Below are positions 36,199 to 45,164 of a DNA stretch of 47,830 nt, one piece after another. The notes below the pieces were generated by a model. That model was not told the DNA's origin and did no database searches. It saw nothing but the letters and a program-made list of their open reading frames with translations. Position 1 is the first letter of the stretch. Each line of letters starts with the position of its first letter. A program made the translations under genes and the position numbers. The DNA comes from an uncultured Bacteroidales bacterium (GTDB lineage Bacteria > Bacteroidota > Bacteroidia > Bacteroidales > Paludibacteraceae): positions 1 to 47,830 of the forward strand of contig CACWZZ010000015.1 in assembly GCA_902765485.1 (NCBI GenBank), read 5' to 3'.

Positions 36199-37146
36199 TT
36201 AGTGTTTAATGATCATATTTTTAAGTTTTTTCGCTAATCTAAATAGTTGGAAGGTAAGCCATGTCGAAGCAAACCATTTCTTCTTATTGCGTCTATCGCA
36301 ATGTTTGGCGAACTCATGCGCGGATTTGTAGTCATTACGATTATATGCCATCCCAAGCAATATTCCATATCGGTAACGATCATCGCCCGGACCATCATAC
36401 TCTCGCCTTAATTGCCCATACAAGTATTCGTTCATCACTTTCTCTTGCGTGTATTTTCTAATAACCGTTTCGTACTCTTTGGGTTTTGACATAGAGCCGG
36501 AGTAACTGCGATAAACGACAGTTGGAGTCTCTACATAATGAAAATCGCAATGAGGAGCAATCAGTATTGCTGTCGGAAAGTCTTGAATTGGGAATCTCAG
36601 TCGTATAAATGCATCCAAATCAACATATTGATCCATCAGTGATTTCCGAATCATAGAAGCACTAAATAGAATCGGATAGCCTTTATGAAGCATATATTCT
36701 AATTTGTCTTCGTCATCCGGTAATTTGTTATTAGCCAGAGTTTTTTGTTTTGTCTCAACTTCCAGATTCCAGTGGTTTGCATAGACCAAACCGCAATTTT
36801 CGTGTGCGTCTAAGTAATCCGCAAGCGTTTGCATGTGGTTTGTCTCACACCAATAATCGTCATCGTCACAGAATGCGATATATTTGCCGCGCGCTAATTT
36901 GCAAGTAGATGCCCAATTGGGACCGAACCCCACATTTTTCTCTTGCAAATTAAGTACAATGATGCCGGGGTATTTTTCCTGGTATGATTGCAGCAACTCG
37001 CGCGAATTATCTGTAGAACAGTCATCTCCAATGATAATCTCAAACGGGAACTCACACTCTTGCGCAAGAATGCAATCTATCGCCTGCCCGATATAATGCC
37101 CGCGGTTATAACTGGTCATTACGACCGATACATAAGGAGTTTTCAT
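36199..37146 (-). CDS. Family 2 glycosyltransferase
   Basis: The 315-residue GT-A enzyme has the nucleotide-sugar fold opening VSVVMTSYNRGHYIGQAID, IIIGDDCSTDNS and the metal-binding acidic motif FCDDDDYW. It probably adds one sugar of a surface glycan at the cytoplasmic face; donor and acceptor are unknown. It starts 9 bp after the GT8 gene. A C-terminal basic-aromatic helix (LFRLAKKLKNMII) may contact the membrane. Confidence 0.88.
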   Translation of the reverse strand: MKTPYVSVVMTSYNRGHYIGQAIDCILAQECEFPFEIIIGDDCSTDNSRELLQSYQEKYPGIIVLNLQEKNVGFGPNWASTCKLARGKYIAFCDDDDYWCETNHMQTLADYLDAHENCGLVYANHWNLEVETKQKTLANNKLPDDEDKLEYMLHKGYPILFSASMIRKSLMDQYVDLDAFIRLRFPIQDFPTAILIAPHCDFHYVETPTVVYRSYSGSMSKPKEYETVIRKYTQEKVMNEYLYGQLRREYDGPGDDRYRYGILLGMAYNRNDYKSAHEFAKHCDRRNKKKWFASTWLTFQLFRLAKKLKNMIIKH

Positions 37147-37155
37147 AGGCGTAGT

Positions 37156-38091
37156 TTATTGAATCCGAATGTAATCTTCTTTAAAATAGATATTCAAGGG
37201 CCACAATATATATCTCTTTATCAACCAATTTAAGACCTTTGTTTTCGGCAATAGGTCAGGAGTTTTCTTCCACATTGATATATCTCGATACCTCCTCCAT
37301 AATCCCAGATACGGCATCTTGTAGTATTTAATCATCCACGGTTTGGTGGAAGCTGAATAATGCATTATCAAAGGATTAGTTGTAGCAAGAATATCCTTTT
37401 TCTGCTCATCCGTCATTTCGTCGAATAAAGATTTTTTCAGGAATAATACTTGGAAATTATAGGTTACCGGCAACATTAACTTTTGGTCGAATAAAACGCC
37501 ATTCAGCGTGTCCTGGTCATTAAACCATAATTTCTCAAAATTATCTTTAATATACGTCATGTATTTTTTACTAAGATCATGTACTCTCCAATATTTGAGA
37601 TTAAGAATCATTGAGCCGGAATTGAAATAGCACTTATCATTCTCCAAACCTAAGCGATCATAAACTTGTTGGTTTGGAGCCCATATGTCTTGCACTACTC
37701 CTAATGCATATTTCTTTATGTCAATCTTCCACATCTCGCGAATGGAACGCGTAACAATAATATCAGCATCCAAATATATAATCTTATCTACAGAATCCGG
37801 CAACAATTCCGCAGCCAATAGGCGGTAATAAATAGAGTTTGTCCATTGCTTGTTATAGACAGGATATTTCTCAAACGTAGAGGCATCTACTTGAATTATC
37901 TGTATTGATTGCTTGTACTGCTCTGCTAAAAAGAGATACTTGCTCTTATCTTGTTCTTTTACCGTATCATCCACTAAAAGATATACGACTATATGCTCAT
38001 CTTTATTATTCTCGAATAAGGATGTCAGCATTATACCGCAATAAGGGACGAAGTTCTTATCTGTCGCGCAAAGGATGTTAATAGTTTCCAT
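37156..38091 (-). CDS. Family 8 glycosyltransferase
   Basis: The 311-residue protein begins METINILCATDKNFVPYCG. It has the GT8 donor-site motif IIYLDADIIVTRS and the late metal-binding His in MHYSASTKPW. GT8 enzymes transfer glucose or galactose with retention, as in lipopolysaccharide core or capsule synthesis. The frame is open to 38205, but ATG 38091 fits the family start and overlaps the previous gene's stop by one base (TAATG). Confidence 0.9.
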   Translation of the reverse strand: METINILCATDKNFVPYCGIMLTSLFENNKDEHIVVYLLVDDTVKEQDKSKYLFLAEQYKQSIQIIQVDASTFEKYPVYNKQWTNSIYYRLLAAELLPDSVDKIIYLDADIIVTRSIREMWKIDIKKYALGVVQDIWAPNQQVYDRLGLENDKCYFNSGSMILNLKYWRVHDLSKKYMTYIKDNFEKLWFNDQDTLNGVLFDQKLMLPVTYNFQVLFLKKSLFDEMTDEQKKDILATTNPLIMHYSASTKPWMIKYYKMPYLGLWRRYRDISMWKKTPDLLPKTKVLNWLIKRYILWPLNIYFKEDYIRIQ

Positions 38092-39104
38092 TAGTGTAAT
38101 CGGCGAATAATAGTTAATATAAAACGAATTGATGAGGCCATAGGGCATATTACAACCAAAAGAATTTTTGCCAAAATAGGATGCCGCAAATAATTTTTTT
38201 CCCATTTAGAGTACGCATAATCATAGAGGATAATTCTATCTTCCTCTAATAATGCGTTACTGACTTTGAAATTATCAGATACGGAATATTTGCTTAAATT
38301 CCTCATACGAATAACGTCATGGACATATCTATGTTGCACATCAGATAGTATTATCTCTGCTCCTTTGCTAAGGTTATCTTTATTATCCTTTACAAACGCA
38401 ATCATTCTTAACCCAAGTTTTAACCTAGCGATTAGTGCTGAATATGATGGTGAAAAATTAGTAGATTTCTCGTTTCTTTTATAGACATAGCCAATGTTGC
38501 TAATATTGCCTATACTATTAGCATAGCTATATAATTTAAGACAAAAATCCCCGTCCTCCCATTGTATGTTTTCTACAAATGTCAAATGATTGTCCTTAAT
38601 CATTTTTCTTCTAAATACACCTTTGGTAGGACCATTAACATCCATATCCAAATATGTATTTAGGAATTGAAAGCCGGTAACAACAATATCTGTAGGCATG
38701 TCATATCTAACTTCACGATACGTGCCGTCTGCTTTCTCATGCTTCATTCCGTAAAAACATATATCCAATTCCTCTTTTAATGCCCTTTCTAATGCAATCG
38801 CAACTCCATTTTCAACAACATCATCCGCATCAATAAAAGCAACATATTCTCCTTTTGCGATTTCCAATCCTCTGTTGCGAGCTGCTCCTTGTTTATGGTT
38901 TTCGCTTTGGCAAATAAGATGCACAAAAGGATATTTAATAGTATATGAGTTTACTATTTCTCGCGTGCTGTCTGTAGAGCAATCATCTATGACAATGATT
39001 TCATAGCCGTTTTTAATCGGTAAGGCCAATATACTATCTATGCAGCGATCGATGTATGAAGCTGCATTATACGCAGGAATAATGTATGATAAATTATAGT
39101 CCAT
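38091..39104 (-). CDS. Family 2 glycosyltransferase
   Basis: The 337-residue protein has an N-terminal GT-A domain (LSYIIPAYNAASYIDRCID, IVIDDCSTDSTRE, YVAFIDADDVVENG). The C-terminal end is hydrophobic (ILAKILLVVICPMASSIRFIL), suggesting a membrane anchor. Sequence is visibly AT-rich, like the rest of the cluster. It lies 1 bp after the preceding GT2 gene. Confidence 0.88.
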   Translation of the reverse strand: MDYNLSYIIPAYNAASYIDRCIDSILALPIKNGYEIIVIDDCSTDSTREIVNSYTIKYPFVHLICQSENHKQGAARNRGLEIAKGEYVAFIDADDVVENGVAIALERALKEELDICFYGMKHEKADGTYREVRYDMPTDIVVTGFQFLNTYLDMDVNGPTKGVFRRKMIKDNHLTFVENIQWEDGDFCLKLYSYANSIGNISNIGYVYKRNEKSTNFSPSYSALIARLKLGLRMIAFVKDNKDNLSKGAEIILSDVQHRYVHDVIRMRNLSKYSVSDNFKVSNALLEEDRIILYDYAYSKWEKNYLRHPILAKILLVVICPMASSIRFILTIIRRLH

Positions 39105-39105
39105 T

Positions 39106-40152
39106 CTATATTGATATTATAAGTTTTATAAATCGGCCTAATGGAGAACATGCAAAGCGATAGACCCTAAAGAAATCGGTTCTGTCATGTTCCCTGTTTT
39201 TCAATAATAGATACATCAATCTTGCATTTCGACCATGTAAACATTTAAGAGACGGGATAAATTTCATGCAATTGTGCTCCACTTGGTATACATCTGAGAA
39301 TTGTTTTGAATCCAAGTCTAATTGTTCATACATAAAGAAATAGCGCATTAGATTAGCAAAATATAAGTCATACACACCATCAACATGTCCGAATTCATGA
39401 TGAATCATACCTTTTACTTTGACCAGTATATCCGCGGTAGTTCTTAATGTTTGCGTCATTTTCTCACTATTGTTCCATAGTGTATCCATGATAGATCCGC
39501 TTCGCTCATTATAATACAGAGTAATGTCCGATATAGTCGCTATTTTCTTAGACAAGACCTTTGCGCGAAAATCAGGAATAACATCTTCCATGATTCTATG
39601 GACACAATACATATCTGCTTTCTTCAAAAACTCCAAGAGGAATAACTTATTCCAATATGCGACAAGCGGAGTAATTCCCTGATGTACATTCAAATAAGTT
39701 CCGGCTGCATCATGCTCTACAATCGTATTGGGATATATAAACTTTTCTTCTTGACTTGAATTCTCATAGACCTTCAATGTAGATCCAATAGTAATCTCCG
39801 TATCATATTTGGAACTGGTGGCATACAGTAGTGACAAAGCCTTTTTATCTAACCAATCATCCGAATCTAGAAACAACAGATATTTTCCGAATGCATTATC
39901 TATCGCCGTGTTCCTCGCAGCTCCCAAACCTTTATTGTGTTCATGTTGAATAATACGAATAATATTTCCTTTTGGGTGAGTAGTTTGTAAGCGATGGATA
40001 ATAGCCATGCTGTTATCTGTACCACAATCATCTATAACAATAATTTCATATGGTAGTTGAAAGTCTTGATCTAATGCTGAAAGCAGAGATTTTTCTACGT
40101 ATTTTTCAACATTATATACAGGAAATCCTATGGTAATAATCGGCGATGTCAT
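39106..40152 (-). CDS. Family 2 glycosyltransferase
   Basis: The 348-residue GT-A enzyme shows ITIGFPVYNVEKYVEKSLL, IVIDDCGTDNSMA, GLGAARNTAIDNAFGKYL and the acidic motif FLDSDDWLD. It is likely to act on a lipid-linked glycan of the cell surface. It is preceded by the GT32 gene (16-bp gap) and followed 1 bp later by another GT2. Confidence 0.9.
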   Translation of the reverse strand: MTSPIITIGFPVYNVEKYVEKSLLSALDQDFQLPYEIIVIDDCGTDNSMAIIHRLQTTHPKGNIIRIIQHEHNKGLGAARNTAIDNAFGKYLLFLDSDDWLDKKALSLLYATSSKYDTEITIGSTLKVYENSSQEEKFIYPNTIVEHDAAGTYLNVHQGITPLVAYWNKLFLLEFLKKADMYCVHRIMEDVIPDFRAKVLSKKIATISDITLYYNERSGSIMDTLWNNSEKMTQTLRTTADILVKVKGMIHHEFGHVDGVYDLYFANLMRYFFMYEQLDLDSKQFSDVYQVEHNCMKFIPSLKCLHGRNARLMYLLLKNREHDRTDFFRVYRFACSPLGRFIKLIISI

Positions 40153-40168
40153 AGTACTTTAATTTGCT

Positions 40169-40918
40169 TTACTCTCTACTAAGAATTCTATTAATTTTTT
40201 TAATTAGCCATCTCCAACAACGTCGCAAAAAGAACAAAATACTTTGTGAAATAGTACGCCTGTAATCACAAGAATTAACTAACCAAGATCCTGAAAAATG
40301 ATGAATGCAATATGTACTTTGTGTAACATTCAGTTCTAACGTATCATACCTTTTGGGGCTAAACCAATCAACAGGGAATCGGCATATAGTGTCATCTGCA
40401 TAGTACCATTGATGAATAGCCAAGCAATCCGATATTTTATATTTCTTCGTTAGATTATTATTCATTATTCTAGGAAGTGGAATCGTTTGAAAATCACCGA
40501 ACGCGTTAATAAACTTGCGTCCTTTGTAGTAATCCAAACAATCTTTGACCCAAGACATGTGAGGCTCTGCGCCTATAATAGCGGCTTCCCAATTACTTGT
40601 AGAATTTTCTTTGCCAATGAAATAGCGCAAATCGAGCAAGTCATTAAACGACTTTAACACTTCCACGTCTGAATCCAGATATATTCCTCCGTAGTTATAC
40701 AGGGCATAAAAACGAATATAATCCGCGACAAAGGCATACTTTTTAGTTGCAATAGCTTGATCAACCCATTTAGAGCCAATAGCATGTGCTTTCGCATAGT
40801 CCCACACAACGATTTCGTAATCCGGCAGAACTTGTTTCCATGAATCATAACATTTTTGGATTTTCTCGGGAAAAGGATCACCACTAATCCAACAATAATG
40901 AATAACTTTTGGTATCAT
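40169..40918 (-). CDS. GT32/OCH1-like glycosyltransferase
   Basis: The 249-residue protein begins IPKVIHYCWISGDPFPEKIQ, typical of capsular-polysaccharide GT32 enzymes. It has YEIVVWD and the DXD motif GGIYLDSDVEVLKSF, and ends with a short basic helix. The family transfers mannose or galactose-type sugars. It is 3 bp after the preceding GT2 gene. Confidence 0.9.
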   Translation of the reverse strand: MIPKVIHYCWISGDPFPEKIQKCYDSWKQVLPDYEIVVWDYAKAHAIGSKWVDQAIATKKYAFVADYIRFYALYNYGGIYLDSDVEVLKSFNDLLDLRYFIGKENSTSNWEAAIIGAEPHMSWVKDCLDYYKGRKFINAFGDFQTIPLPRIMNNNLTKKYKISDCLAIHQWYYADDTICRFPVDWFSPKRYDTLELNVTQSTYCIHHFSGSWLVNSCDYRRTISQSILFFLRRCWRWLIKKINRILSRE

Positions 40919-40921
40919 AGA

Positions 40922-41902
40922 CTAATTTTTATTTTGAGAAACCATTTGTTTTGCATAATGTACAGGGAATAGCACATGTTTCAGCATAGACCACTTTTGG
41001 CGGTTACTATAGTTTCCATGAGTTATGATTGAGGGTAACATCCAGACTAACATGAAACGGCATGAGAGGTATTCGCGCCAATATTTCCGATACGTTTTTG
41101 TTCCTACTATCTGACGCAACAAGAAATTATAGTTGAACCAAATGTGCCATTCTACTGTATGAAGAAATGCCGGTGTTCGAACAACAGATACTTTATAAAT
41201 GTTCTTGATATTCCACAAACCATTGATTCCATTTTGTACATTGTAAGTTTTGGTACTACTCTTCAGGTTGTCCGTCCGGTAATTATATATTCGGCGGTGT
41301 CCTTTGGCAATGTAATTGCTGTATTGCGCTGCCATTGTACAAAAGTACATACCCTCGCCAAACCAAGGAATTGAAAAAGTTAGATTGTTTCGTCGTATCA
41401 TTTCTGTTTTATACAACTTATTCCAACACCCCATAGGGAAATGTAATGCAATTATCTCTGTCGCAGCTTTTTCTCCTGACCATTTTTCTATACAATCTTT
41501 CTCATTTTGCACTTGGTTTTCTGATGTAAAGACACTATCTGTCATTGCCATTTCCGCGCCCATCTTTACCGCATTACACAGAAGATACTCTACAAAATCA
41601 GGCTCTAACCAATCATCTCCATCTACAATAGTAAACCATTCTCCTGTCATCACCTCCATGCCTCTGTTTCTCGCTTCGCATCCTCCACCATTAGGCTTGT
41701 GTATAACGATTATGCGGGAGTCTAATGCCGCATATTTATCACATATTTCTCCACATTCATCAGGAGAGCCGTCATCCACTAAGATTATTTCAAGGTTCTG
41801 ATGAGTCTGATGCAAGACAGACTGAATTAACTTGTCTAAATACGGGGCAACTTTATATATAGCCACAATTACAGATACTTTTATTCCTTCAATATCTTTC
41901 AT
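40922..41902 (-). CDS. Family 2 glycosyltransferase
   Basis: The 326-residue enzyme has VSVIVAIYKVAPYLDKLIQ, IILVDDGSPDECGEICD, GGGCEARNRGMEVMTGEW and FTIVDGDDWLE, the usual GT2 landmarks. The C-terminal part carries an aromatic, partly hydrophobic segment typical of cell-wall GT2 enzymes. It starts 1 bp after the pyruvyltransferase gene. Confidence 0.9.
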   Translation of the reverse strand: MKDIEGIKVSVIVAIYKVAPYLDKLIQSVLHQTHQNLEIILVDDGSPDECGEICDKYAALDSRIIVIHKPNGGGCEARNRGMEVMTGEWFTIVDGDDWLEPDFVEYLLCNAVKMGAEMAMTDSVFTSENQVQNEKDCIEKWSGEKAATEIIALHFPMGCWNKLYKTEMIRRNNLTFSIPWFGEGMYFCTMAAQYSNYIAKGHRRIYNYRTDNLKSSTKTYNVQNGINGLWNIKNIYKVSVVRTPAFLHTVEWHIWFNYNFLLRQIVGTKTYRKYWREYLSCRFMLVWMLPSIITHGNYSNRQKWSMLKHVLFPVHYAKQMVSQNKN

Positions 41903-41903
41903 A

Positions 41904-43016
41904 CTATTCTATATTTTTCATTAAATATTTGTTCGCTTTTTGTTGCAAATCAGGCAGTCGTTCTTCAAACTTAGAGAAGGGATAAACTGGCAAATCAGGA
42001 ATCTTTGTGTCAACCAAATAATCAGCGATATCAAAATAGGAATTCAATTGTTCTAATCGCGCATTTTGACTTTTCTTACTTCTTGCATCAAAGCGCAAAA
42101 ATGTGAAAAACGGAGTGTGAAGAATTAGTGATAAAATGGTTGCATGATAAGAGTTTGTAAGAACAACTTCAGCGTTATCTATCAACCAAAGCCACTCTAA
42201 AGGACCCATGATATCAACTTTTTTCATCCATATATAGTCTTCATGGTCAGCTGAAAAGCCTATTGCTTCTAAATGATGTTTTTTTACGTATTCTTGAACC
42301 TGCATTTTATACTCCTGATCTGTTGAAAGAAAGTAACAAAATGCAAATGGTTTCTTAATGTATAGTGCAGGTTTGGCAATAGCGCGGTAGTGAGATGCAT
42401 CTATAAGCAATGTTGGATCTATATGAATTGCTGCCGAGTATCCGAGTTGATTTATCAACTCTCTTCCGTCATTTTCGCGAACAGAAATAGCACTAAATGA
42501 TTTTAAACTCTCTTTGTATAGCGGAATTAGCTCTTCCGGCATAGTCTTCCCTCCTAAACTGGCAGCATAGGAAATCTTGTTGAGGGGGTGTGTTTGGAAG
42601 TTTTGCAAGAATATAGGGTCAATATGATTCGGATTCCAAATTTGGTCACTCCCACTTATGATAGTGGTAAAAGACTTGCATATATCCTCAATATTCTCTT
42701 CCGTACAGGGTTCAGTCATTTTACAATGCTGATTATAGAACGGAAAGAACGGACTGACTTTTTTCTGAAGAGAGTATGGTATAATAGTATAAAATAGAAG
42801 TAAACATTCTTTGAATAAGCGCTTTATTATTTGTTTTAAAGAAAGCATTCTCCAAGGCATTTGCATATAATCGCCACGACACCATTGAGGAACATAACGA
42901 ATAATTCTTGCGTCAATTCCATTTTGGCGCAAGTAATAATGCAACGCATATGCTTGCAAAGCGCTCCCGCAATTTGTCGGGTCATGCCATGTTAATATTC
43001 CTACTTTTGGTGCCAT
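41904..43016 (-). CDS. Polysaccharide pyruvyl transferase family protein
   Basis: The 370-residue protein begins APKVGILTWHDPTNCGSALQAYAL. It has ISGSDQIWNP, ISYAASLGG and a late VVLTNSYHATILSLI segment with the His typical of the family. It adds ketal pyruvate to a sugar from PEP, giving the glycan a negative charge. The true ATG is 43016 (a TTG codon precedes it). It is the first gene of the glycan operon; no consensus promoter is visible upstream, where a CGTGA/TCACG dyad lies at about 43059-43073. Confidence 0.88.
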   Translation of the reverse strand: MAPKVGILTWHDPTNCGSALQAYALHYYLRQNGIDARIIRYVPQWCRGDYMQMPWRMLSLKQIIKRLFKECLLLFYTIIPYSLQKKVSPFFPFYNQHCKMTEPCTEENIEDICKSFTTIISGSDQIWNPNHIDPIFLQNFQTHPLNKISYAASLGGKTMPEELIPLYKESLKSFSAISVRENDGRELINQLGYSAAIHIDPTLLIDASHYRAIAKPALYIKKPFAFCYFLSTDQEYKMQVQEYVKKHHLEAIGFSADHEDYIWMKKVDIMGPLEWLWLIDNAEVVLTNSYHATILSLILHTPFFTFLRFDARSKKSQNARLEQLNSYFDIADYLVDTKIPDLPVYPFSKFEERLPDLQQKANKYLMKNIE

Positions 43017-43113
43017 CAACCTTTCATTTACTCTCTATTTACCCTTCTTGTCTCGTGACTATCTCACGATCATCGTGTACGTCTCTGATGGGTGTTTGAT
43101 ATTTTGATAAAAA

Positions 43114-43245: not shown

Positions 43246-43262
43246 TATTTTTTGTAACTTTG
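43232..43262 (+). promoter_or_regulatory. Promoter of the AAA ATPase gene
   Basis: TTGCATAAT (TTG at 43232-43234) and TAACTTTG (43255-43262) with a 20-bp gap. The -33 element lies in the fourth 33-bp repeat copy. Confidence 0.8.
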
Positions 43263-43280
43263 CAGCGGTTTTCAAAATAC

Positions 43281-44636
43281 ATGATTATGAAACGGAAGAT
43301 CTATCAGCAGTTATTGCAATGGAAAGAGCAAGAAAAGGGGCGTGTAGCTATCCTTATCGAAGGTGCCAGACGTGTCGGGAAAAGTTACATTGCTGAGGAG
43401 TTCGCAAGAAACGAGTATCGCTCGTATATTCTCATTGACTTCGCCCACATTACCAAAACCATGAAGCGCGTCTTTGATGACTACCTGGAAGACACTACTA
43501 CTTTCTTTCGATACCTGCAGACAGTTGCCGGAGTGACACTATATGAACGTGAGTCAATCATTATTTTTGACGAGATTCAGAAATATCCAAGAGCACGGCA
43601 GGCAATCAAACATCTAGTGGCTGATGGTAGATACGATTATATTGAAACCGGTTCGTTGGTTAGCATCAATAGCATGGCAGAGGATATCCTTGTTCCTTCT
43701 GAAGAACGATCCATGCAAATGTTCCCTATGGATTTTGAGGAATTCCTTTGGGCTTTGGGAGATGAACTGACTATGCCGTTTATTCGCGATTGTTTTGAGC
43801 GTAAACGTTCTTTAGGTCCGATGCATCGCAAAGCGATGGATATGTTCCGTCAATACCTCATCGTGGGAGGAATGCCACAAGCTGTGAACGCATACGCAGA
43901 TACGCACGATTTCCAAGTTACAGATAAACAGAAGCGTGACATCCTTTCTCTTTACCGCAAAAGCATCGGTAAATATGCCAAAGGATACGCAGAAAAAGTG
44001 CGTGGCATTTTTGACCAGATACCCGGCGAACTACAGAAACACGAAAGACGATTCATGTTGTCATCCATTGAGAAAGGAGCCCGCTATAGGAGCTATGAAA
44101 CGGCATTCCTTTGGTTACAGGATGCACAGATTACCAACACTTGCTATGGAGTTACCGAACCAACTGTGGGGATGCGTTTGCGTCGGGACGACGAGACATT
44201 CAAATGTTATATGATGGACACAGGATTACTGCTGTCACATGCATTTGATGAAAAAGCCATCCAAGGCGAGGAGCTATACCAGAAACTGCTACTGGACAAA
44301 TTGGAAATCAATTCAGGAATGCTGATTGAAAACATTGTAGCACAGATGTTAAGCACCTCGGGGCATAAACTCTATTTCTACTCATGTCTGTCACGAGAAG
44401 ATGCATCTTCACGAATGGAGATAGATTTCTTGGTAGAAAAGCCAACTTTAACTAACCGACATAATATATGCCCCATAGAAGTGAAATCCGGACAGCGCTA
44501 TACAACCAACTCACTGGATAAATTTCAAGCAAAATTTACCGAACAACTGGCGACACCGTATATCATCCACACCGCGGATTATCAAGAGAAAAATGGCATT
44601 ATTTATTTGCCGTTCTATATGGTTCCATTGCTTTAG
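43281..44636 (+). CDS. AAA-type ATPase with DUF4143-like C-terminus
   Basis: The approximately 451-residue protein has an N-terminal ATPase domain with Walker A EGARRVGKSYIAEE, Walker B IIIFDEIQKYPRARQAI and the sensor-like YIETGSLVSI. The C-terminal region has the DUF4143-like arrangement RMEIDFLVEK and PIEVKSGQRY, reminiscent of a PD-(D/E)xK nuclease fold core. Such ATPases are widespread and mobile in Bacteroidota and archaea, with no settled function. The ATG at 43287 is an alternative start. An array of 33-bp repeats covers the promoter, suggesting self-regulation. Confidence 0.88.
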   Translation: MIMKRKIYQQLLQWKEQEKGRVAILIEGARRVGKSYIAEEFARNEYRSYILIDFAHITKTMKRVFDDYLEDTTTFFRYLQTVAGVTLYERESIIIFDEIQKYPRARQAIKHLVADGRYDYIETGSLVSINSMAEDILVPSEERSMQMFPMDFEEFLWALGDELTMPFIRDCFERKRSLGPMHRKAMDMFRQYLIVGGMPQAVNAYADTHDFQVTDKQKRDILSLYRKSIGKYAKGYAEKVRGIFDQIPGELQKHERRFMLSSIEKGARYRSYETAFLWLQDAQITNTCYGVTEPTVGMRLRRDDETFKCYMMDTGLLLSHAFDEKAIQGEELYQKLLLDKLEINSGMLIENIVAQMLSTSGHKLYFYSCLSREDASSRMEIDFLVEKPTLTNRHNICPIEVKSGQRYTTNSLDKFQAKFTEQLATPYIIHTADYQEKNGIIYLPFYMVPLL

Positions 44637-44656
44637 TTTTTATCAATATATCAAAG

Positions 44657-44692
44657 ATCGCTTTCGTCATACATATCAATGGCGAAAGCGAT
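44657..44692 (+). terminator. Terminator after the AAA ATPase gene
   Basis: ATCGCTTTCG (44657-44666) pairs with CGAAAGCGAT (44683-44692). It faces the terminator of the opposing RNA at 44704-44736. Confidence 0.7.
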
Positions 44693-44702
44693 TTGTTGAA
44701 TA

Positions 44703-44997
44703 CAAAAAACGCGGATCTCTTCTCTTGCTTATCCGCTTTCTGAGGTCCTAGGAAAACCTTAAGTCTCGAATAAGCAATGCAGAAACCCACGCTGTGTATA
44801 TACGCGCACATACGCACCTAGATATGGTACGCACGGGTATAGATACACCCATGGGCATCTACCACTACTTGTTTTCGAAGACTTTTTATTGAAATTTCCT
44901 AGGTTTCAGAAAGTCAAAAACAAGCGTTAGTAAACGCCATTAAATATGTCTGCTCCCTCACTCCGAAATATCACGCAGACGTCCCAGCGTGAGTTTG
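44703..44997 (-). ncRNA. Structured non-coding RNA candidate, about 295 nt
   Basis: The unit lies between a consensus promoter (45003-45034) and a terminator (44704-44736), both on the minus strand, and has no good reading frame apart from an 8-codon one (MAFTNACF). Helices seen in RNA order: CUCAC (44993-44989) with GUGAG (44961-44957), crossed by GUCUGC (44980-44975) with GCAGAC (44953-44948), forming an H-type pseudoknot; a GCGUU-UACU-AACGC hairpin; CUUGUUUU with AAAACAAG around a hairpin loop; and a 9-bp long-range pairing of that loop (CCUAGGAAA, 44903-44895) with UUUCCUAGG (44755-44747). It does not match RNase P, tmRNA, SRP or 6S RNA signatures that I know. Confidence 0.7.
44704..44736 (-). 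terminator. Terminator of the structured RNA
   Basis: Minus strand: GCGGAT (44736-44731) pairs with ATCCGC (44716-44711), followed by GTTTTTT. The loop and 5' arm contain ATAAGCAA, which can also pair with TTGCTTAT upstream in the RNA (44777-44770). Confidence 0.8.
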
Positions 44998-45002
44998 CGC
45001 TG

Positions 45003-45034
45003 CAAAGGTACTACATTTTTCTGATATATGCAAA
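45003..45034 (-). promoter_or_regulatory. Promoter of the structured RNA
   Basis: Minus strand: TTTGCATATATC (TTTG at 45034-45031) and TACCTTTG (45010-45003), 20 bp apart. The TTTG is the end of the T tract of the preceding terminator. Confidence 0.8.
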
Positions 45035-45063
45035 AAAAATCGCAACTGAGTGCGATTTTTTTT
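45032..45063 (-). terminator. Terminator of the V-ATPase/fabD/DUF1295 unit
   Basis: Two 13-nt arms, each eight A or T plus TCGCA/TGCGA (45032-45044 and 45051-45063), form a perfect stem that reads as a terminator in both directions. On the minus strand its T tract runs straight into the promoter of the structured RNA. Confidence 0.85.
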
Positions 45064-45093
45064 GTTTGGGGATGAATGATGCTGCGTGCGTGT

Positions 45094-45120
45094 GCATACA
45101 TACATGCATACATGCATACA
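45094..45120. repeat. CATACATG micro-repeat
   Basis: CATACATACATGCATACATGCATACA is an 8-bp-period repeat between the DUF1295 stop and its terminator. It would be transcribed in the 3' untranslated region. Confidence 0.55.
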
Positions 45121-45164
45121 CGATGTGGAATACATTGATTATTTTATCCGTAGAAAGAAGGACT

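Follow-up and report, generated by a model that had tools for sequence, protein, structure and literature searches.

EAR/epsC RNA and JUMPstart are structured leader elements of exopolysaccharide or O-antigen operons. Both are smaller than the RNA described here, and we know of no two-state network comparable to it in either. Bacteroidales capsule loci are controlled by the Bacteroides UpxY/UpxZ system via transcription elongation past a leader, and UpxY, RfaH/ops, and LoaP are all examples of processive antitermination. Cobalamin and purine riboswitches contain kissing loops, and in their transcriptional forms a helix of the expression platform excludes the terminator. Bacteroidales-1 RNA (RF01693) has a promoter and a terminator. 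The names, taxa (Bacillales and gamma-proteobacteria), and Rfam numbers of EAR/epsC (RF01735) and JUMPstart (RF01707) follow PMC2864571.

The locus compared with these systems lies on contig CACWZZ010000015.1 (GCA_902765485.1) of an uncultured Bacteroidales bacterium of the Paludibacteraceae; the whole stretch of DNA analysed, 47,830 nt, is referred to as the window. Like EAR/epsC and JUMPstart, its RNA appears to be a structured leader tied to polysaccharide genes, but the taxa differ and cmscan gave no hit to either here. UpxY/UpxZ control is protein-based, whereas the RNA family found here appears to serve single surface proteins as well. A predicted loop-loop contact and a predicted expression-platform helix excluding the terminator recall the kissing-loop transcriptional riboswitches; unlike in those, the loop sequences change freely while remaining complementary, and no Rfam riboswitch hit fell on the window copy or over 20 further copies. 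With Bacteroidales-1 it shares its order and the possession of a promoter and a terminator. A first-pass annotation had allowed that this could be a known Bacteroidales RNA, a suggestion that the Rfam scans do not support: no Rfam 15 family matches, and RF01693 is absent among the 19 matches obtained over 44600-45130 at E<=10, all of them far below gathering scores. We read the RNA as a cis-acting, bistable leader (attenuator) with two conserved folds that share strands, a reading drawn from sequence comparison to which we give roughly two chances in three.

Promoter, terminator, and paired segments in the window

All parts of the RNA lie on the minus strand. The promoter is predicted from TTTG at 45031..45034 (the -33 element) and TACCTTTG at 45003..45010 (the -7 element), separated by a gap of 20 nt, an arrangement that we take to be the Bacteroides-type promoter consensus. 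Boxes resembling both elements stand at the same place in aligned relatives carrying the same 5' domain. The leader RNA itself, about 295 nt (44704..44997), has ends that are placed by the promoter and by an intrinsic terminator (44704..44736), which is evident from the sequence and from family alignments as a hairpin of Y2 (GCGGAU, 44736-44731) and X2 (AUCCGC, 44716-44711) followed by a U-tract. No ORF of at least 80 aa with an ATG, GTG, or TTG start overlaps 44703-45034, in a listing that begins at that length. The first-pass annotation had reported a consensus promoter, a terminator, and no usable reading frame, all of which stand, the last for frames of at least 80 aa. The MFE of the leader RNA has a z of -6.93, and 0 of 200 shuffles are as stable.

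Two observations concern the surrounding DNA. The terminator-plus-promoter segment 45045-44994 (minus strand) has about 42 short matches elsewhere in the genome without the RNA, 77-94% identical, and looks like a common promoter context of the genus. A short simple repeat of the GTATGCAT type occupies 45085-45125, between a DUF1295 gene and the promoter.

Near the 5' end, the two crossing stems described earlier are present. CUCAC (44993-44989) pairs with GUGAG (44961-44957), and GUCUGC (44975..44980) pairs with GCAGAC (44953-44948); in relatives the latter pairing reads AUUAUGUCU/AGACAUAAU, as judged by eye and uncounted. The CUCAC strand belongs to a segment X1 (CUCACGC, 44987..44993) that could pair with segment C/Y1 instead of locally. 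The X1 motif, as searched, occurs in 46 of 184 copies (127 from the genus and 57 from a search of the order), and all 46 can pair over at least 6 bp with Y1, a count favoured by the selection on the motif. At one X1:Y1 position 41 genus copies show T-A (25), C-G (8), T-G (6), C-A (1), and T-T (1). X1:Y1 pairs appear in the MFE structure of no prefix of the window RNA. X1 may be a further partner for C.

The remaining segments can be ordered as a chain of strands, A' - A - B - C - X2 - Y2 - S7, from which two states are predicted. State I comprises A:B, C:X2, and Y2:S7, and state II comprises A':A, B:C, and the terminator X2:Y2. Segment A (GGCGUUUACUAACGCU, 44923..44938) would fold on itself as a hairpin in state II or pair with B in state I. 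Segment B (UGGUAGAUGCCCAUG, 44850..44864) would pair with A in state I or with C in state II, and segment C/Y1 (AGCGUGGGUUUCUG, 44780..44793) with the terminator 3' arm X2 in state I or with B in state II. The 5' strand of S7 (UUGCUUAUUCG, 44767..44777) pairs with 44735-44725, and this 3' strand overlaps the terminator 5' arm. The overlap had been pointed out before; it is real and conserved, and would permit two forms of the 3' end. A first loop hairpin (44890..44912) carries the loop CCUAGGAAA at 44903-44895 and a flank at 44912-44906, and a second (44737..44759) carries the loop UUUCCUAGG at 44755-44747 and a flank at 44743-44737. The two loops together form the 9-bp helix between a hairpin loop and a downstream segment that had been noticed from the start.

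An RNA family and its covarying pairs

The segment is one copy of a large Bacteroidales RNA family that is absent from Rfam 15. A cmscan of the whole window gave 0 matches at gathering thresholds, so that the lack of tmRNA, RNase P, SRP, and 6S signatures remarked on earlier is confirmed by the Rfam covariance models. Over 20 loci with other copies the matches were RNase P, one tRNA, and one SAM-II riboswitch only, all outside the copies, and a known Rfam family is ruled out by the scans of the window and of these loci. Locus L193, which carries another copy, has a separate canonical RNase P; the SAM-II riboswitch lies at L258:2053-2112, a locus that also holds an order-search copy. The literature compared, which extended to PMC8040213, PMC2864571, and PMC7366714 apart from their supplements, yielded no account of an RNA of this kind; a published candidate may match in part, e.g. 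HMP2_1881, which is 108 bp long, comes from Bacteroidetes, and is located near radical SAM genes.

DNA similarity reveals three long copies in the genome of the window and more in the same genus, with differing flanks. A conserved core pattern is found in at least 119 stretches of GTDB contigs, and the records among the matches listed belong to Paludibacteraceae, Bacteroidales, Bacteroidia, or Porphyromonadaceae, many being from rumen, horse, or pig. A covariance model, R1, built from 127 distinct genus copies, finds the RNA in 147 of 151 genus genomes when no more than 14 candidates are scored per genome; in several genomes of the genus besides that of the window, all 14 of the 14 candidates scored are matches. 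The window's genome has eight copies of at least 70 bits and ten further matches of at most 41 bits, the latter including antisense matches to the same places. In a sample of the order, with at most five candidates scored per genome, 129 of 393 genomes match at E<=0.01 and 62 at E<=1e-10, the latter from 35 genera and 24 families, own genus included. Only E<=1e-10 is counted within the order because five genomes of the phylum outside Bacteroidales (L328-L332) match with 33-38 bits, down to 2.1e-6; these are either noise or very distant relatives. Two leader-core copies lie in one locus at L184:284-990 and at L159:450-2458.

Among the 127 genus copies, a pair set that includes the 9-bp helix is 90.4% formed, vs 79.0% when shuffled and 46-51% when slid, with 722 doubly changed cells vs 246 in shuffles that ignore the relatedness of the copies. 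One helix of this test, S10 (helix 7), is poorly aligned and scores badly (46.0%). The first-pass annotation had judged the paired design unlikely by chance; chance structure is ruled out by the MFE z-score and by the doubly changed cells vs shuffles, and the 9-bp helix in particular covaries strongly. Among the genus copies, individual positions of the loop-loop helix are occupied by CG (43), GC (42), UA (21), and AU (16), so that what is kept is complementarity and not sequence.

The two states can be assessed separately in the alignment of the 57 order-search copies. Only A:B, S4, S7, and the loop stems guided the fitting of this alignment, the loop-loop and C:X2 pairs being absent from the covariance model. 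For state I the paired cells amount to 94.6% (A:B), 94.3% (S7), and 98.1% (C:X2). For state II they amount to 91.6% in the A hairpin, 94.3, 75.1, and 83.5% in the parts of B:C, and 76.0% in the local terminator. The loop-loop helix (seven pairs) reaches 99.5% and the flanking S9 93.6%. State I alone (A:B, C:X2, and S7) has 95.4% of cells paired vs 89.9% shuffled and 40-46% slid, with 92 doubly changed cells vs 28.9 shuffled. When state II is taken together with its rod (A hairpin, loop-loop, S9, B:C, and terminator), the figure is 89.1% vs 78.5% shuffled and 34-45% slid, with 252 doubly changed cells vs 79.2 shuffled. In both cases 0 of 500 shuffles reach the observed number of doubly changed cells. 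Taken without loop-loop and S9, state II is much weaker (84.0% vs 81.1% shuffled; 62 doubly changed cells vs 27.6). State I counted jointly with loop-loop and S9 gives 95.9% and 287 doubly changed cells, 195 of them from loop-loop and S9.

Loop-loop, S9, and S10 cannot be nested with S4 and S7, so these pairs would belong either to a kissing contact within state I or to the state II rod; the copies compared fit both, and either may apply. RNAalifold, run without a given structure, predicts A:B, S4, C:X2, and S7 on a MAFFT alignment (A2), and the same helices plus the second loop stem on alignment A5, which had been fitted to the model with A:B, S4, S7, and the loop stems. A C:X2 helix of 6 bp or more is possible in 117 of 122 genus copies and in 57 of 63 others, a group to which copies from the window's genome belong. 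Because this segment varies so little, the contrast with pairing between copies (90% and 82%) is small. In the local terminator Y2:X2, a length of 6 bp is reached by only 42 of 122 genus and 40 of 63 other copies. Comparison shows that two conserved, mutually exclusive sets of predicted covarying pairs exist in the family. The terminator is involved, as would be expected of an attenuator, and state II depends largely on loop-loop and S9.

The explicit energies of the window RNA are -108.6 kcal/mol for state I and -107.9 kcal/mol for state II. Prefixes of 255-290 nt have MFE structures of the state II type: the A hairpin, loop-loop, and B:C are already there at 255 nt, S9 joins them at 262 nt and the terminator at 290 nt, and from 293 nt the MFE is that of state I (A:B, S4, C:X2, and S7); such prefix MFEs are not kinetics and leave pseudoknots unscored. 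In 31 window-type copies the signed difference between the best terminator fold and the best S7 fold has a median of 1.2 kcal/mol, and for 26 of the 31 the two lie within 5 kcal/mol of each other. As a control, a quarter of 33 comparable conflicting 6-bp stems in the window RNA cost at most 0.7 kcal/mol, and of these cheap stems six belong to state II and the others to a variable hairpin. Since cheap alternative stems are common in the window RNA, the near-equal energies are suggestive and not proof.

Neighbouring genes and rival explanations

Comparison shows that the predicted targets include many capsule or cell-surface products, among them polysaccharide clusters and surface proteins. In Pfam, 94 genus downstream proteins gave 23 BspA-type LRR_5, 6 Glycos_transf_2, 5 GtrA, 3 DegT, 2 GLF, and 2 MBOAT matches; they make up 49 families, and for the first member there was no match. 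A second set of 61 downstream proteins, seven of them from the window's genome, gave six LRR_5 and three NusG matches, and single members were outer-membrane, PEGA, glycosyltransferase, and kinase proteins. By family tallies and resemblance, the N-termini of proteins starting 0-2 nt past the RNA look like DegT, MBOAT, GLF, GtrA-like, and glycosyltransferase proteins. Signal peptides, called by a home-made rule, are found in 40 of 84 downstream genes vs 117 of 444 other genes in the genus (p=2e-4), and in 33 of 56 vs 43 of 92 in the order search (not significant). Around the first 34 loci, no cluster of a shared neighbour gene family exceeded four ORFs.

Two recurrent sequence types were seen beside the leaders. 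Target ORFs at L103, L139, L164, L186, L209, L258, and L273 have N-termini with ..(S)RR(E/T)FFK.. and related motifs, which we presume to be TAT-like or RiPP-precursor-like. At L100 and L178 (and L181 by sequence) the leader follows small proteins ending in ..LVLAAYGHY.., which we take to resemble RelE/YoeB-type toxins.

Since several copies head polysaccharide genes, the RNA could instead be a processive antitermination leader, bound by a NusG-like or other protein so that polymerase passes terminators in polysaccharide operons; the three NusG matches would be expected if the first genes were of UpxY type. We consider this unlikely. The UpxY model scores above its cut-off in 1 of 31 genus genomes, with two more within 5 bits below, although nearly all genus genomes carry the RNA, and it finds no match in the window's genome (82.8% complete). 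Most of its other hits, at 53-76 bits and one per genome, behave as ordinary NusG presumably would. Many targets are, moreover, single surface-protein genes, and antitermination has no need of two conserved alternative folds. UpxY as a partner is unsupported by these genome counts.

Position argues for the leader reading. The downstream gene is co-oriented with the RNA at 84 of 89 genus loci, vs 388 of 498 other gene pairs (p=1.2e-4), and at 56 of 56 order-search loci, vs 86 of 118 (p=1.2e-6). These counts are based on 100 genus cores and 57 order-search cores with neighbours called. Among the latter, one locus is from the window's own genus and three are from its family, and the near-identical L272 is left out; other filters give 95 vs 6 for the genus and 57 of 57 for the order search. 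The upstream gene is co-oriented at 64 of 88 genus and 29 of 54 order-search loci. Between RNA and start codon there is a gap whose median is about 60 nt. Of 27 small-gap rows, 18, representing 15 distinct loci, have an ATG 0-2 nt past the U-tract, which leaves no room for another promoter, so that expression would be possible only by read-through. At least 12 genus copies without the 5' promoter domain begin just past the stop codon of another gene, as seen by eye. Downstream co-orientation, tiny gaps, and starts behind stop codons together point to a leader or intercistronic element, and in position the family is that of a co-oriented 5' UTR. The window copy itself faces a convergent gene, as do 5 of the 89 genus loci.

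The same three features weigh against a stand-alone, trans-acting non-coding RNA, protein-binding or base-pairing, that lies upstream of genes by happenstance. Its own promoter and terminator, the convergent gene faced by the window copy, and the eight strong copies in the genome would all suit such an RNA, which we nevertheless regard as quite improbable. The first-pass annotation had described a pseudoknot-rich, independently transcribed RNA; the pseudoknots, the promoter, and the terminator stand, but the notion of a lone gene does not. As one of eight strong copies in its genome, from a family mostly located upstream of co-oriented genes, the window RNA makes more sense as a structured 5' leader.

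In the window this position is hidden because a convergent AAA_14/DUF4143 ATPase gene (43260..44636, plus strand, by Pfam) separates the RNA from a polysaccharide cluster, a putative operon of a pyruvyl transferase and six glycosyltransferase/capsule genes (36199..43019, minus strand, by Pfam). At the orthologous locus L165 the pair of genes upstream shares 99% and 98% identity with that of the window, and the RNA 86%. There, a co-oriented gene resembling an ABC transporter follows 110 nt past the RNA, and the 8-kb stretch of L165 contains no AAA_14/DUF4143 ATPase match. The AAA_14/DUF4143 gene may be a lineage-specific insertion.

A mobile or recombinogenic element (MITE-like, attC-like, or phage satellite) spreading through genomes, as a dispersed multicopy family with different flanks and two copies per locus in L184 and L159 might suggest, is highly improbable given the compensatory changes between distant strands, the fixed orientation to genes, the variable 5' domain, and the count of 0 for the exact core pattern among viral contigs. 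An early 15-base pattern did occur in 34 viral contigs, which is taken as chance, and with the specific core pattern at 0 a phage origin is rejected.

A possible switch and its output

Two conserved, mutually exclusive folds in front of genes probably constitute an on/off switch for those genes. For the bistable leader the following course can be proposed. Transcription would start at the leader's own promoter or arrive from an upstream gene, and the nascent RNA would settle in one of the two conserved folds. The first domain (A:B, S4, and first loop) would form early. In state I there would be two hairpin domains, one of A:B, S4, and the first loop hairpin, the other of C:X2, S7, and the second loop hairpin; S7 and C:X2 would occupy both terminator arms, and the complementary loops could kiss. 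Alternatively the second loop, once emerged, may kiss and then zip with the first, kissing being the presumed start, to give a rod. In the resulting state II, segment A would fold on itself, the loop regions and B:C would zip into one long rod, and the freed Y2/X2 arms would form the terminator, presumably turning the downstream gene off. A cell signal, be it a ligand, a protein, or elongation rate, might hold the first domain and so favour S7 and read-through.

The C:X2 helix, like the terminator, ends at the U-tract, so termination might occur in state I as well, and the regulated step would then not be the choice of terminator. Start-codon occlusion or RNA stability are possible as alternative outputs.

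More tentatively, the family might represent a new, order-level Bacteroidales class of riboswitch that senses a ligand. Two complementary loop regions of about 35 nt would zip together and thereby refold the entire leader, and the class would coordinate genes for capsule, O-antigen, and surface proteins in answer to one signal, e.g. an envelope precursor or nucleotide sugar. This goes beyond the bistable leader and on the sequences compared is a doubtful though possible extension of it. In many gut and rumen communities the Bacteroidales are dominant, and the polysaccharides and proteins on their surface influence how they meet phages, hosts, and competitors. A shared RNA switch before surface genes, if true, would be a new layer of control, and the two folds of the leader family make clear, testable predictions. 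As a minority of the sampled Bacteroidales genomes carry the RNA at E<=1e-10, its presence or absence can also be compared with lifestyle.

The 5' domain is itself variable. In many genus copies (e.g. at L161, L091, L136, L173, L208, and L178) the place of the promoter and single pseudoknot is taken by tandem units, each about 33 nt long and one to three per copy. By eye these units resemble H-type pseudoknots, with, e.g., GCUG..CAGC stems and a loop that pairs 3' of them, and they often stand directly behind a stop codon.
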